Positions 2,201 to 5,981 of a stretch of DNA of 5,981 bases are shown one piece after another. Made by a program: the position numbers and the translations under genes. Under the pieces are notes generated by a model that saw only the letters and a program-made list of their open reading frames with translations, was not told the origin of the DNA and searched no databases. Position 1 is the first letter of the stretch. Every line of letters begins with the position of its first letter. Source of the DNA: Pseudomonadota bacterium (lineage in GTDB: Bacteria; Desulfobacterota; Desulfobacteria; Desulfobacterales; Desulfobacteraceae); NCBI GenBank assembly GCA_018816605.1, contig JAHIVS010000263.1, forward strand, positions 1 through 5,981, given 5' to 3'.

Positions 2201-2623
2201 TCAAATCCAGTAGTTTTGTTTTAGGTTTATTAAGCCCTGGGATATCAGGGTTTGCAGATCCGGCAGGGCCTGGGTGAACAGGTGTCTTAGATGCAGGACC
2301 AGGTCCCACCGTTCCGGGTCATGGTCCCGGGTTGTCAGGCCCGGGTCGAAAGACAGGGTCGGCTGGCCTTCCCTGGTCACCTGTAAGGAAAATCCTTGAT
2401 TATTGAATTCCTTCAAAAAAGCGGACAGCATGACCACGGGTTCGCTGTCTTTCCAATTTTCCATGTCCTGGTGATCCGGATCCAGGATGGCGGGGGCCAT
2501 GACATGCACCAGAGCCCCCATTTTTTCAGCAGCGTCATACTCCTGGATATCCTGGGCCGCCAGGGCCACCGGGGCCACCGGGGTTCCATATTTTTCATTG
2601 AGCAAATCAAAGGCAGTGGACAT
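2201..2623 (-). CDS. Hypothetical protein, 140 residues
   Basis: I do not recognise a family with confidence. The start at ATG 2623 is well supported by AAGGAG 9 nt upstream, and the sequence downstream is an ordinary soluble, acidic protein. Seen: an N-terminal segment with PVAPVALAAQ (a 9-bp DNA tandem repeat encodes PVAPVA), a Met/Pro-rich middle, then from about residue 66 to 127 a pattern LSAFLKEFNNQGFSL ... PTLSFDPGLT ... LHLRHLFTQALPDLQTLI. That last part loosely resembles small docking-type domains (TubC N-terminal-like: a helix, a two-strand hairpin, then helices) often encoded next to plasmid or phage primases, but the match is weak and by eye. There is no signal peptide, membrane segment or Cys cluster. 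It is the first gene after the repeat array, so it may be controlled by whatever binds there. A role in replication or its control is only inference from position. Confidence 0.75.
   Translation of the reverse strand: MSTAFDLLNEKYGTPVAPVALAAQDIQEYDAAEKMGALVHVMAPAILDPDHQDMENWKDSEPVVMLSAFLKEFNNQGFSLQVTREGQPTLSFDPGLTTRDHDPERWDLVLHLRHLFTQALPDLQTLISQGLINLKQNYWI
2564..2581. repeat. Two tandem copies of a 9-bp unit (GGCCACCGG)
   Basis: This lies inside the 140-residue gene and encodes part of PVAPVA on the minus strand. The unit shares the CCACC core and the 9-bp period with the TTGACCACC units of the nearby intergenic array, but the rest differs, so a link is uncertain. Confidence 0.6.
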
Positions 2624-2640
2624 GGTTTTTTTCTCCTTTT

Positions 2641-2666
2641 TTGGTTTGGTCAGGGTGGTCAATGCT
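2641..2666. repeat. 26-bp direct repeat, copy 1 (with 2706-2731)
   Basis: It begins TTGGTTTGGTCA and ends GGTCAATGCT, and is identical to 2706-2731 at 25 of 26 positions (G at 2653 against A at 2718). A partial third copy, GGTCAGGGTGG, lies at 2680-2690. Each full copy holds two GGTCA(A/G) hexamers 9 bp apart. Confidence 0.85.
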
Positions 2667-2705
2667 GGACTGGGTGAATGGTCAGGGTGGAAACCCGCTC
2701 CGGTA

Positions 2706-2731
2706 TTGGTTTGGTCAAGGTGGTCAATGCT
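2706..2731. repeat. 26-bp direct repeat, copy 2
   Basis: This is the second copy of the repeat at 2641-2666, offset by 65 bp. It contains GGTCAAGGTGGTCAA (2713-2727), whose exact reverse complement occurs at 2807-2821 and again, overlapping, at 2816-2830. Confidence 0.85.
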
Positions 2732-2770
2732 TTTTTTTAGAAAAGAAGATTTTAAAAACAATAATAAAAA

Positions 2771-2789
2771 ATATGCGCGCGCACGTGTA
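2771..2789. other. 19-nt perfectly alternating purine-pyrimidine tract (Z-DNA candidate)
   Basis: ATATGCGCGCGCACGTGTA alternates purine and pyrimidine at every position and has a GC-repeat core, the classical composition for a B-to-Z transition under negative supercoiling. It directly follows the AT-rich segment and sits in the spacer between the two arms of the 15-bp inverted repeat. Confidence 0.6.
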
Positions 2790-2806
2790 ATAGGGGAAAA
2801 GTTGCC

Positions 2807-2830
2807 TTGACCACCTTGACCACCTTGACC
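2807..2830. repeat. Three head-to-tail TTGACC units at 9-bp pitch
   Basis: TTGACC at 2807, 2816 and 2825 is joined by ACC, giving two full TTGACCACC 9-mers and a third core. This is the most regular part of the array. Nine base pairs is close to, but short of, one helical turn, so bound proteins would wind gradually around the helix. Confidence 0.8.
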
Positions 2831-2946
2831 GAAATTTTTTAAATAGCTGATTTTGTTATTGATATTGGTGGGTGATAAAAACCGGGTCACCTTGACCACC
2901 CTTGACCGGGCATTGACCAGAATCGGGTCAATCAGGGTTCCCATAA

Positions 2947-2961
2947 TTAGGCGGGGCCTAA
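2947..2961. repeat. Short inverted repeat after the primase-helicase gene
   Basis: TTAGGC (2947-2952) and GCCTAA (2956-2961) flank a GGG loop, about 45 nt past the primase-helicase stop. On the minus strand the stem is preceded by a GC-rich run and T5 but is followed by TTATGG, not a U-run, so terminator function is doubtful. Confidence 0.3.
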
Positions 2962-3006
2962 AAACGGGGCGCGGGGGTCCGGGGATCCGGCGGGCAGTTG
3001 GGCACA

Positions 3007-5358
3007 TCATGACAGGAAATCCTTGATTCTTAGGCCTTGGATATAGGGCAGGCGCTGGGGGTTGTCCTTTCGTGGTCGCCATTGTTTCAAGGATGAATGG
3101 GCCGCGTATAGCTCCCGGAAAAAGTTTTCCCGGGAATAGGTCCTGTATCCGTTTTTACGGCAATACCTTTCATAGACGGCAAACAGGTCCTCTTTTTTGG
3201 CCTGGGCATCGGTCTCCACCTGGCACACATCCTGGCAGAAACAAATGACAGGATTGTTCAGGCGCTTGTATTCCATCAATAGTTCCTCGGTTTCCTCAGA
3301 CCAGGTGAACTTTTGATTTTTCAGCAACCGGTTTAAACCTGCCAGCGCCCAGTGGAAAATCTCTGATTTTTCCGCCAGCAATTTTTCATCCAGGAAGGGA
3401 TCCGTGTTTGGGTCACCCTCTTTGAATTGTGTTTTGAATGATATGGGCAGGATACGCCGGAACAACCCATCCGAATTATCCCGGACCCGGGGCATTTTAT
3501 TGGCTGCAAAAATCTGTTTGCAATAGGGGACAAAGGTAAAAGTGTTTTTGTGTTTAAAGGCTGCATTGATTGGGTCCCCTGCCGTGATTGCTTTAAAATA
3601 TGGAGACTCCACCGCCTTGCTGCCCACCTCCGTGGATATGTTCACGGTCTTTTGATACAGGGAAGACCTTAAAAACTGGTCCTCCATTTCTGCAAAGGAT
3701 ACGGCCGCGCAGTTTTCCGGGCCGATCATTTCCCGGAGCAATTTTAGGATGGTGGATTTTCCATCGGACCCCGGCCCCAGGAGCAACAAACATTTTGCAA
3801 AGGGCACCCGCCTTAAAAAACAATACCCAAAAAATTCCTGGACCTGGGCAATCACCTCCGGAGTTTTAATGGTTTCATCCAGATACTGCAGAAACCGCCC
3901 ACAGGTATCCTTTGACTTTGGGTTAAACGTCACGGCCAATTCATAGGTGGCATAAAAATCCGGGTGGTGATCCTCCAGGATCCCCGTGGTGATATTGAGC
4001 ATCCCGTTTTTAACGCAAATAAAATCCAGCTTATCATTTAGACTCCGGCCATGGGGAATGGTGGACAGGGCCTCGACCTGGAAAACCGCATCGTTTACCC
4101 ATGCCTGTTTACCTTCTATCCCCAGCATCTTTAATGCGGCACTGGACAAATATTTCGCGTGAAATTCTTCCCAATATCGGCCATTCCACTTGTATAATTC
4201 CCCGATATCTGGACAATGCAATAAATTATATTTCTCCATAAGCCGGGAGGCTAACAGGTTTGCCTTAAAGGATATCCGGTCATTCATGCCGCGCACAAAA
4301 AACTCCAGGGCCTGGCTCTCGATGACGGGTTCCGGAGCCTTGAAATGATCCGCGTCATCAATCAACCGCTGCAGGTCCACCGCTGTTTTTTTATGCTTAA
4401 CAAAAAAATCAGTCAGATCCTGGCCGTGATCCTCCGGCCACAAACCATCCTCCCGTCTGCCCATAAAATTGGGCCACTCCAGCATCCGCACCGACTTGGC
4501 CACCTTGTAAATCTCCGGACCTGCAAAGACCTGGGCATAATGCTGGCCCGGTTGATCTGCATCAAATGCAAGGACCACATCCCGGTTTTCAAACTGTTTT
4601 AAATGCTCTTTGCTCCATTTTTTCGGTTTGGTGGTCTGGGTAATGGCATTGAACCCGTTACTGATCGCACAGATAACGTCTGATTCACCCTCACATAATA
4701 GGACGGGGCGGTCCGCCTGGGGGGATGGGGGGAACAGGCGGGCATCCCCGTAGTTACTGCCCCAGGAAATAATCTTTAATTTTTTCGCACCGGGTTTATA
4801 AAGGCGGATATTCCGGACATCGTTGTTTTGATCAAAAATCGGAATGGCAATCCGTTCCGGTTTTTTCAATTGAATGAGCTGGGTGGAATCTTTTTTCTGA
4901 TAATGGGTTTGTTGCCGAATCCCCAAGGCCTTAAGGGCTAAAGGATGCCAGCCCCTGGTTATGACAAGTTTATCAACCCATGGCTCCGGCAAAGGCCCCA
5001 GCATCTGATAGGCCTCATTCAAAGGGGGCTGGACCACTTTTTTTTCCTTCTGGCCTTCCCCTGGGTTAAATCCATCGGATATATTATATTCAATACAAAA
5101 CGCCTTGAAATCCTCCTTACTATCCCCGGATCCCCGGACCTTGCTCCACAAGGCGATAATATCACCGCTAAACCCACAACTGGGTGTAAAACAGTGACAA
5201 ACATCCTTGGCAGCATTGTATGAAAAAGAAGGTTCCTTGTCTTCATGGGCCGGACACAACCCGATCATTTCCCCGCCCTGGGTGGATGTTACTTTGAACA
5301 ACCCCCGGGCAATCCCCTCCAGGTCCGATGTGGTTAGATGTGCGGCCGCCTTGCCCAT
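3007..5358 (-). CDS. CHC2-Toprim DNA primase fused to D5/P4-type SF3 helicase
   Basis: A 783-residue replication protein that would synthesise RNA primers and unwind DNA at an element origin, acting in the cytoplasm. Domains seen in order: a CHC2 zinc finger (C35-x2-H38 with PSF, then CHCFTPSCGFSGD around C56/C61); a Toprim catalytic core (LLCEGESD with E223, and AFDADQPG with D266 and D268); a D5-N-like linker (about 350-510); an SF3 helicase with Walker A GPGSDGKST (528-536, K534), Walker B-like VNISTE (E577), motif C ending in N620 (KQIFAANKMP) and the arginine pair R634-R635; and a C-terminal region (about 690-783) with YERYCRKNGYRTYSRENFF that looks like a winged-helix DNA-binding tail. 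Length and order match phage and plasmid bifunctional primases; phage P4 alpha is similar in size and binds origin repeats with its C-terminus. ATG 5358 directly follows the TAA of the dnaA-like gene, with AAGGGG 7 nt upstream inside that gene, so coupled translation is likely. No key residue appears missing. Confidence 0.93.
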   Translation of the reverse strand: MGKAAAHLTTSDLEGIARGLFKVTSTQGGEMIGLCPAHEDKEPSFSYNAAKDVCHCFTPSCGFSGDIIALWSKVRGSGDSKEDFKAFCIEYNISDGFNPGEGQKEKKVVQPPLNEAYQMLGPLPEPWVDKLVITRGWHPLALKALGIRQQTHYQKKDSTQLIQLKKPERIAIPIFDQNNDVRNIRLYKPGAKKLKIISWGSNYGDARLFPPSPQADRPVLLCEGESDVICAISNGFNAITQTTKPKKWSKEHLKQFENRDVVLAFDADQPGQHYAQVFAGPEIYKVAKSVRMLEWPNFMGRREDGLWPEDHGQDLTDFFVKHKKTAVDLQRLIDDADHFKAPEPVIESQALEFFVRGMNDRISFKANLLASRLMEKYNLLHCPDIGELYKWNGRYWEEFHAKYLSSAALKMLGIEGKQAWVNDAVFQVEALSTIPHGRSLNDKLDFICVKNGMLNITTGILEDHHPDFYATYELAVTFNPKSKDTCGRFLQYLDETIKTPEVIAQVQEFFGYCFLRRVPFAKCLLLLGPGSDGKSTILKLLREMIGPENCAAVSFAEMEDQFLRSSLYQKTVNISTEVGSKAVESPYFKAITAGDPINAAFKHKNTFTFVPYCKQIFAANKMPRVRDNSDGLFRRILPISFKTQFKEGDPNTDPFLDEKLLAEKSEIFHWALAGLNRLLKNQKFTWSEETEELLMEYKRLNNPVICFCQDVCQVETDAQAKKEDLFAVYERYCRKNGYRTYSRENFFRELYAAHSSLKQWRPRKDNPQRLPYIQGLRIKDFLS

Positions 5359-5981
5359 TTAATTACCCCTTGTGCTTGTTTCTAATTTTTTTGACAAATA
5401 ATTGACCTGGTCAAACAGCTTGCCCTTTTGTCTGAGCTCCCGTTCAACTGCATTAATGGAATAGATGGCCGTGGCATGATACCGGCCAAATGCCTGGGCG
5501 ATATGTTTGATAGATTGGTCCGTATATTTGCGGGCCAAGAAAATGGCCAGCTGCCGGGATTTGACAATCCGCTGTTTTCTGACCGGCCCCACCAGATCCT
5601 TTTCTGACACGGAAAATTCTTTACTGATCAGCTGTTTAATCTGGTCCAGGGTGACGGACCGGTGACCGGTTGAAATTGTCTGAACCACCCCCCGGGCCAG
5701 GGCCAGGTCAATGGACCGATTCAGCAACTGCCCCTTGGCAGCAATGCCATGCAATCCGCTTTCCAGCTGCCGGACATCCCGGCACAACTCCTGGGCAATG
5801 TATTCCAGGACCTCCCGGGGCATTTCATACCCGGCCGCCTTGGCCTTTTTCAACAGGATCCGAACCCGGGTATCAAACCCCGGGGCCTTGATCTGGGTGA
5901 CCAGGCCCATGGACAACCGGGACCGCAACCCGGTGTCTATCCGGGGGATGTCCTCGGGCAAAATATTGCTGGAAAAAATGA
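5359..5981 (-). CDS. dnaA: DnaA-family replication initiator, C-terminal part (N-terminus beyond the window)
   Basis: DnaA is the ATP-dependent AAA+ protein that binds 9-mer boxes and melts origins. The frame is open to the window edge: six more codons (IFSSNI) precede a TTG at 5961, and they match the sensor-1 strand of DnaA, so the gene runs on past 5981. Numbering from that TTG: GLRSRLSMGL (11-20) is the box VII region with arginine-finger candidate R15; VLEYIAQELCRDVRQLES (51-68) is the lid with sensor-2 R64; domain IV is 104-190, with KSRQLAIFLARKYT (134-147, R136 matching E. coli R399) and the DnaA signature GRYHATAIYSINAVE (159-173). The signature keeps His but has Tyr and Ala where E. 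coli has Asp and Thr (GRDHTTV), residues that contact the DnaA box, so its box may differ. Walker motifs are outside the window. Direct coupling to a phage-type primase-helicase suggests an element-borne dnaA; chromosomal dnaA at a prophage border is the alternative. Confidence 0.88.
   Translation of the reverse strand, partial: IFSSNILPEDIPRIDTGLRSRLSMGLVTQIKAPGFDTRVRILLKKAKAAGYEMPREVLEYIAQELCRDVRQLESGLHGIAAKGQLLNRSIDLALARGVVQTISTGHRSVTLDQIKQLISKEFSVSEKDLVGPVRKQRIVKSRQLAIFLARKYTDQSIKHIAQAFGRYHATAIYSINAVERELRQKGKLFDQVNYLSKKLETSTRGN
5402..5414. repeat. 13-bp palindrome TTGACC-T-GGTCAA inside the dnaA-like gene
   Basis: This is a perfect inverted pair of the same hexamer that forms the intergenic array, with a 1-bp centre. 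It lies near the 3' end of the dnaA-like coding region, where it encodes part of FDQVN. It may be an initiator or repressor site just before the primase gene, or a coincidence. Confidence 0.5.

Follow-up and report, generated by a model that had tools for sequence, protein, structure and literature searches.

What purpose is served by a dense array of short repeats that fills the gap behind a primase gene? The question is raised by a 5,981-nucleotide stretch of DNA from a Pseudomonadota bacterium of the Desulfobacteraceae (contig JAHIVS010000263.1; this whole stretch is called the window here), in which copies of the hexamer TTGACC and its complement GGTCAA lie directly after the gene of a P4-family primase-helicase. 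A preliminary description, made from the letters alone, had taken the array for an uncharacterised replication origin. We think it very probable that the array is indeed where replication of a tailed-phage genome begins, an origin of the kind found in phage P4 and the staphylococcal pathogenicity islands (SaPIs), and that it is read by the primase-helicase. The element in the window is presumably a phage, as its relatives carry terminase genes.

Results

The array stands out clearly from its surroundings. Ten exact copies of TTGACC/GGTCAA, six on the plus strand and four on the minus strand, lie between positions 2657 and 2931, accompanied by the near variant CCCTGACC at 2648 and 2680. When the segment 2641–2935 was shuffled 1000 times, TTGACC occurred 0.32 times on average and three times at most, so that none of the 1000 shuffles reached 10; when the window as a whole was shuffled 500 times, no 295-bp segment held more than five. 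Over both strands of the entire window there are 17 copies, versus 4.8 expected. The preliminary description was thus right about the ten exact hexamers in both orientations and about their near variants, and the frequent 9-bp pitch that it mentioned occurs at 2713/2722 and 2805/2814/2823; at 2890/2900/2911 the spacing is 10–11 bp.

Beyond that description, the sites form two opposed arms around a centre. According to our table of sites, the whole array, the putative origin, extends over 2648..2933 and is assigned to no strand. The arm near the primase gene (2805..2918, plus strand) consists of CCTTGACC-type sites at 2805, 2814, 2823, 2890, 2900, and 2911, and the arm far from it (2648..2729, minus strand) of sites in the opposite orientation at 2648, 2657, 2680, 2713, and 2722. 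Between the arms lie an AT-rich stretch (2728..2770, with an AT fraction of 0.77 over 2728–2780), which is likely the melting site, and an 18-bp CpG-rich tract of alternating purines and pyrimidines, ATATGCGCGCGCACGTGT (2771..2788). All of this is contained in a gap of 386 bp (2621–3006). A minus-strand frame is open across the gap (open reading frame (ORF) 2201–3082). Among 55 related arrays, described below, any of the six frames is open across the array in 23, and no single frame is common to them; the gap therefore reads as non-coding, as had been stated before.

Arrays recur behind the primase genes of related elements. Three close relatives, with 74% identity, came from viral contigs, two further viral scans yielded 37 and 75 loci, which overlap, and an alignment-based scan of genome contigs, where a single protein query had found no relative, yielded 20 loci from bacterial genomes titled Desulfo-, Geo-, or Deltaproteobacteria. 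For each locus we asked whether some 8-mer was over-frequent in the 700 bp that follow the stop codon of the primase gene, compared with 200 shuffles. The first set comprised 57 loci and the window, less three without the primase end in the contig and one with too short a flank, and an array exceeding all 200 shuffles was present in 46 of these 54, the window included. The second set comprised 69 loci, of which 29 came from already used contigs and were left out, as were 6 of the 40 others, in which the match did not include the primase C-terminus; here the array exceeded all shuffles in 29 of the 34 testable loci from contigs new to the set. One locus (L163) fell short by a single shuffle, and two others by 4 (L238) and 20 (L237) of the 200. 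Looser similar repeats, judged by eye, are present in L172 and in L175, whose protein end has the same sequence as that of L223, and in L136 the array overlaps the primase end. Among 26 relative records, hand-picked and mostly the longer records plus the core loci defined below, a GpA-type terminase large subunit is encoded in 22 and a capsid protein of family PF05065 in 4, which for these relatives argues against a satellite life on the particles of a helper phage, as in SaPIs and PICIs.

The layout of the array is conserved, and its word is not. This comparison excludes the loci that did not exceed all 200 shuffles (8 of 54 and 5 of 34) as well as L176 (26% identity), and the remaining 74 were collapsed to 55 distinct loci; in L154, L155, L156, L158, L173, and L157, the hexamer register was assigned manually, with the orientation of the arms as the guide. 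These 55 loci use 16 different hexamers. Read in the direction of the primase gene, minus-strand sites precede plus-strand sites more often than they follow them in 54 of the 55 arrays, with a tie in L230, a count in which the orientation of four arrays had itself been set from the arms. Neighboring sites on the same strand are most commonly 9 bp apart (119 cases), followed by 11 bp (57) and 10 bp (31). In 46 of the 55 arrays, the DNA between the arms includes a pyrimidine–purine run of 10 bp or more that has at least three CpG steps, whereas such a run was found in only 11 of 1994 random 110-bp windows from the same loci.

The layout that stays fixed while the word changes is like that of ori1 in P4 (NC_001609). 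The ori1 repeats, at 9310 (-), 9320 (-), 9331 (-), 9353 (+), 9396 (-), and 9406 (-), have the order and spacing of the primase-side arm, and it is this half of the window's array (2805..2918) that by eye corresponds to ori1. Allowing 3 bp, 17 of the 55 loci match the pattern at all six sites, 25 at five, and 13 at four or fewer; the window, at five of six, is among the 42 that match at five or six. The mean fit is 4.82 sites, versus 3.19 for permuted patterns, 3 of 299 of which do as well. With the two geometries placed in register by eye, the P4 word is TTCACC, versus TTGACC in the window.

The primase-helicase (3007..5358, minus strand), our proposed initiator, has a zinc ribbon of the DnaG type, Toprim, D5_N, and SF3 helicase domains, and a C-terminal winged helix; it scores 207.5 bits against the P4-family model TIGR01613 (cut-off 108.7) and matches the Pox_D5 domain at its C-terminus above the cut-off. 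The winged helix (residues 695–783; 3007..3276, minus strand), the proposed reader of the array, is predicted from matches to Pox_D5 and RFX_DNA_binding and from a structural model. At E ≤ 0.1, Pox_D5 matches all 34 members of our alignment A3 (likewise hand-picked, mostly longer records plus core loci), and RFX_DNA_binding matches 33 of the 34 (best RFX value 2.2e-9), with the window's own score for the latter, 18.0, standing against a gathering cut-off of 27. We scanned the mutual information between the hexamer bases and 731 primase columns. Residue 771 (Pro in the window; codon 3046..3048, minus strand) came first for base 1, for base 2, and for bases 1–2 together, where it reached 1.04 bits over the shuffle mean and the next column 0.49. 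Residue 763 (Arg; codon 3070..3072, minus strand) came first for base 6, with 0.92 bits over the shuffle mean and 0.64 for the next column. In the model, these two residues sit at the two ends of the wing of the RFX-like winged helix.

These associations were examined further by a test in which relatives within a tree distance of 0.6 (tree from residues 1–690) were removed before each prediction. In a core set of 41 loci, from which 14 remote or aberrant loci had been excluded by hand after the data table was viewed, residue 771 predicts bases 1–2 in 34, compared with 22 for the next column and 18 for a majority guess, and residue 763 predicts base 6 in 36, compared with 34 for a majority guess. 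Residue 771 differs in all 17 independent pairs of loci that differ in bases 1–2, as does column 735, and is identical in 15 of the 19 independent pairs that agree there. Each of the 22 cases of Arg or Tyr at 771 is paired with G at base 2. Likewise, each of the 33 cases of Arg at 763 is paired with C at base 6; among the 22 loci without this Arg only two, with His and Lys, have C. When changes were placed on branches of the tree, residue 763 ranked first: eight of nine base-6 changes fall on branches where it changes (uncorrected p 7e-8). An analysis of distances by region gave a modest signal that peaks at residues 741–780 and 621–660.

Before new loci were fetched, we wrote down a rule by which Pro or Ala at residue 771 predicts TT at bases 1–2; Gln, Asn, Thr, or Glu predicts CT; Tyr predicts CG; and Arg predicts TG, sometimes CG. 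Scoring was strict, in that Arg with CG counted as a miss even though the rule allowed it. The rule is right in 33 of the 37 training loci, wrong in three, and silent in one. The 18 distinct new loci gave 13 predictions, the other five having residues outside the rule. All six predictions in new relatives of at least 44% identity are right; this line, at 0.44, was drawn after the result was known.

Several observations weigh against the reading of the array as an origin whose word follows the primase wing. All seven predictions in the remote relatives, where the wing alignment is uncertain, are wrong, with Asn or Arg paired with CG; taken with the six correct ones, this means that the code holds only inside the subfamily. 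In the raw co-change of branches, residue 771 ranks 142 for bases 1–2, which we suppose to be because the residue varies among Gln, Asn, Thr, and Glu within one word class. When all 55 loci are used, its lead for bases 1–2 is narrow (30 versus 29, at distance cuts of 0.6 and 1.0), it is second at a cut of 0.3, and for base 2 alone it falls to rank 13 (cut 0.6); residue 763 then ranks 14 for base 6, with 42 of 55 correct versus 45 for the best column (cut 0.6). The regional signal, too, has a further peak at 621–660. As for the arrays themselves, a control window in the same locus equals the array count in 3 of 46 (L133, L139, L161), the complete array of L130/L169 is about 2.4 kb from the primase gene with ORFs between them, that of L209, with five copies, is about 0.5–1 kb away, and L138, L167, and L213 are without a clear array in the available stretch. 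Weighing both sides, we lean somewhat toward the view that roughly a dozen sites form a conserved scaffold whose word is replaced in concert, and that residue 771, for bases 1–2, and residue 763, for base 6, largely set that word.

Two of the loci, L126 and L127, are on the same chromosome, that of Desulfoluna limicola, and have an identical primase C-terminus and an identical hexamer, so that each origin should be readable by the initiator of the other. A supposed difference between their words was rejected, as only positions outside the hexamer are loose.

Discussion

The origin function put forward in the preliminary description is supported, at the level of sequence, by the position of the array, by its sharing the geometry of the annotated P4 origin, and by the covariation of its word with the neighboring primase. 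From these observations we infer how initiation may proceed. The primase-helicase, encoded just upstream, would bind the repeated word of 8–9 bp through its C-terminal RFX-like winged helix, with the two ends of the wing, residues 763 and 771, chiefly reading the bases. The opposed arms would collect two groups of protein; these would load a pair of helicase rings that face one another across the AT-rich centre, and would open this centre and prime synthesis. That a wing should read DNA has a precedent in the RFX domain, a domain of eukaryotic transcription factors: RFX1 reads DNA with its wing.

Other functions could, in principle, account for a repeat array at this place. The DnaA box is TTATCCACA, and TTGACCACC matches it at six of nine positions. 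The DnaA-like protein encoded just upstream, whose gene abuts that of the primase, might then bind the array as variant DnaA boxes and be the initiator itself. We hold this to be very unlikely, and the partnership with a DnaA-type initiator that had been proposed earlier is not borne out. DnaA domain IV, the C-terminal domain, was found in none of 34 relative records, 22 of which reach over 1.8 kb upstream of the primase gene, although the records may be fragments; 30 of these 34 nevertheless pass the array test, and DnaA is therefore not needed. Moreover, the window contains no TTWTNCACA box, and the word covaries with the primase wing. We accordingly rejected DnaA as the reader of the array. 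The DnaA-like gene appears instead to have been acquired by the window's element, given its absence from the 34 records, and is apparently accessory to it; one scan found no viral relative of its product.

The array also precedes a small ORF and the genes that follow, and in one relative (L001) the small ORF holds further repeat copies, as might be expected if the array had nothing to do with replication and served instead as a group of operators bound by a regulator that controls the downstream operon. Such a cluster would not explain opposed arms around an AT-rich centre, the geometry of P4 ori1, or the covariation with the primase-helicase (computed for the primase alone), and the only promoter-like matches are two weak ones, both of them antisense to the genes; this alternative is very improbable. 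A packaging site (cos or pac), with terminase genes following, seems extremely unlikely, in spite of the terminase genes of the relatives and the separation of array and primase in L130/L169, because the word follows the primase wing and the same geometry is annotated in P4 as replication repeats. Least credible of all is an array that represents a coding tandem (Gly-Gln-Gly) or the product of neutral repeat drift. It is true that tandems of TTGACCACC elsewhere in viral contigs encode such repeats and that one frame is open across the window's array, but the orientation reverses between the arms, the relatives share no common open frame, and the geometry is kept while the word changes.

Taken as an origin read by the primase-helicase, the array is itself uncharacterised, as had been said, but its kind is not. 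The alpha protein of P4 is, like the window's protein, a P4-family primase-helicase, and its origin-binding winged helix is also C-terminal (structure 1KA8, P4 residues 671–770), whereas that of the window is predicted; 1KA8 was absent among the 50 fold matches listed in either search with the window's C-terminal domain. The P4 crr lies directly 3' of the alpha gene, as the array lies 3' of the primase gene here. However, in P4 the sites are split, with ori1 and crr about 4.7 kb apart, while the window has both arms together in 2648–2933; since crr repeats come directly after the alpha gene, P4 seems to separate what these phages join. P4 is, in addition, a satellite, whereas most of the relatives carry terminase genes. 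In SaPIs and the phage-inducible chromosomal islands (PICIs), the origin is directly 3' of rep and has two sets of iterons flanking AT-rich DNA, a position and an anatomy that the window matches. The pri-rep-ori modules of SaPIs and PICIs (PMC6092414), like P4 and the phage origin described next, make this a known kind of origin; it has been argued that the opposed arrangement in SaPI origins places two rings facing each other (PMC9894130), and stated that origin recognition by SaPI Rep is C-terminal (PMC7581432). Streptococcus phage Sfi21, a full phage, has an annotated non-coding origin of 302 bp at the end of a putative primase gene and beyond it, in which an AT-rich centre is likewise flanked by repeats; its repeats are fewer and different (GTTAC-type), and the likeness is one of annotation rather than of compared geometry. 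In Euratis and AcaML1, the primase gene is followed by no more than a short gap.

Against this background, the conserved scaffold, the CpG-rich tract, and the wing code look new, while the kind of origin is known. Our searches of open-licence papers, none of them aimed at the tract, brought up no description of either the wing code or the alternating tract. By the same test as above, neither ori1 nor crr of P4 has the tract that the window has. The tract would add to such origins a third element that has so far gone undescribed, and it may absorb supercoiling or form Z-DNA. More generally, P4, SaPI/PICI, and phage origins are tied here to one layout, found in viral contigs and in genomes titled Desulfo-, Geo-, and Deltaproteobacteria, and the wing offers an explanation, open to test, for a joint shift in the specificity of initiator and origin. 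If the explanation is true, such a recognition code would let related phages keep separate origins, and the last 90 residues of a primase could anticipate an origin and, in closer relatives, part of its word.

The gap had no Blastn match in phage records and no Rfam match at the gathering score. The 15-mer TTGACCACCTTGACC matched at least 120 stretches in viral contigs; among the six densest listed outside the primase family, five have Gly-Gln-rich or collagen-like translations (L093, L117, L064, L042, L021), and in L113 repeats of this type lie inside a long ORF.

The genes of the window are all on the minus strand, in the order DnaA-like gene, primase-helicase, gap, ORFs of 139 and 209 amino acids, and C5 methyltransferase. 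The DnaA-like gene (5359..5979), truncated by the window's end, encodes the lid and domain IV, with the domain IV motif GRYHATAIYS. The 139-residue ORF directly after the array (2201..2620) belongs to no family, and the window's copy has no match in Pfam, PHROG, or NCBIfam. Several core loci have recognisable relatives of it in the corresponding position, and a pattern like W-DS--V--LS-FLK recurs in L143, L147, L124, L155, and others; it is a candidate accessory replication factor. In L001, the additional copies of the origin repeat lie within the coding sequence of that relative's own small ORF (L001 5767–6213). The 209-residue ORF (1278–1907), also without a family, occupies a position in which one could expect a terminase small subunit.
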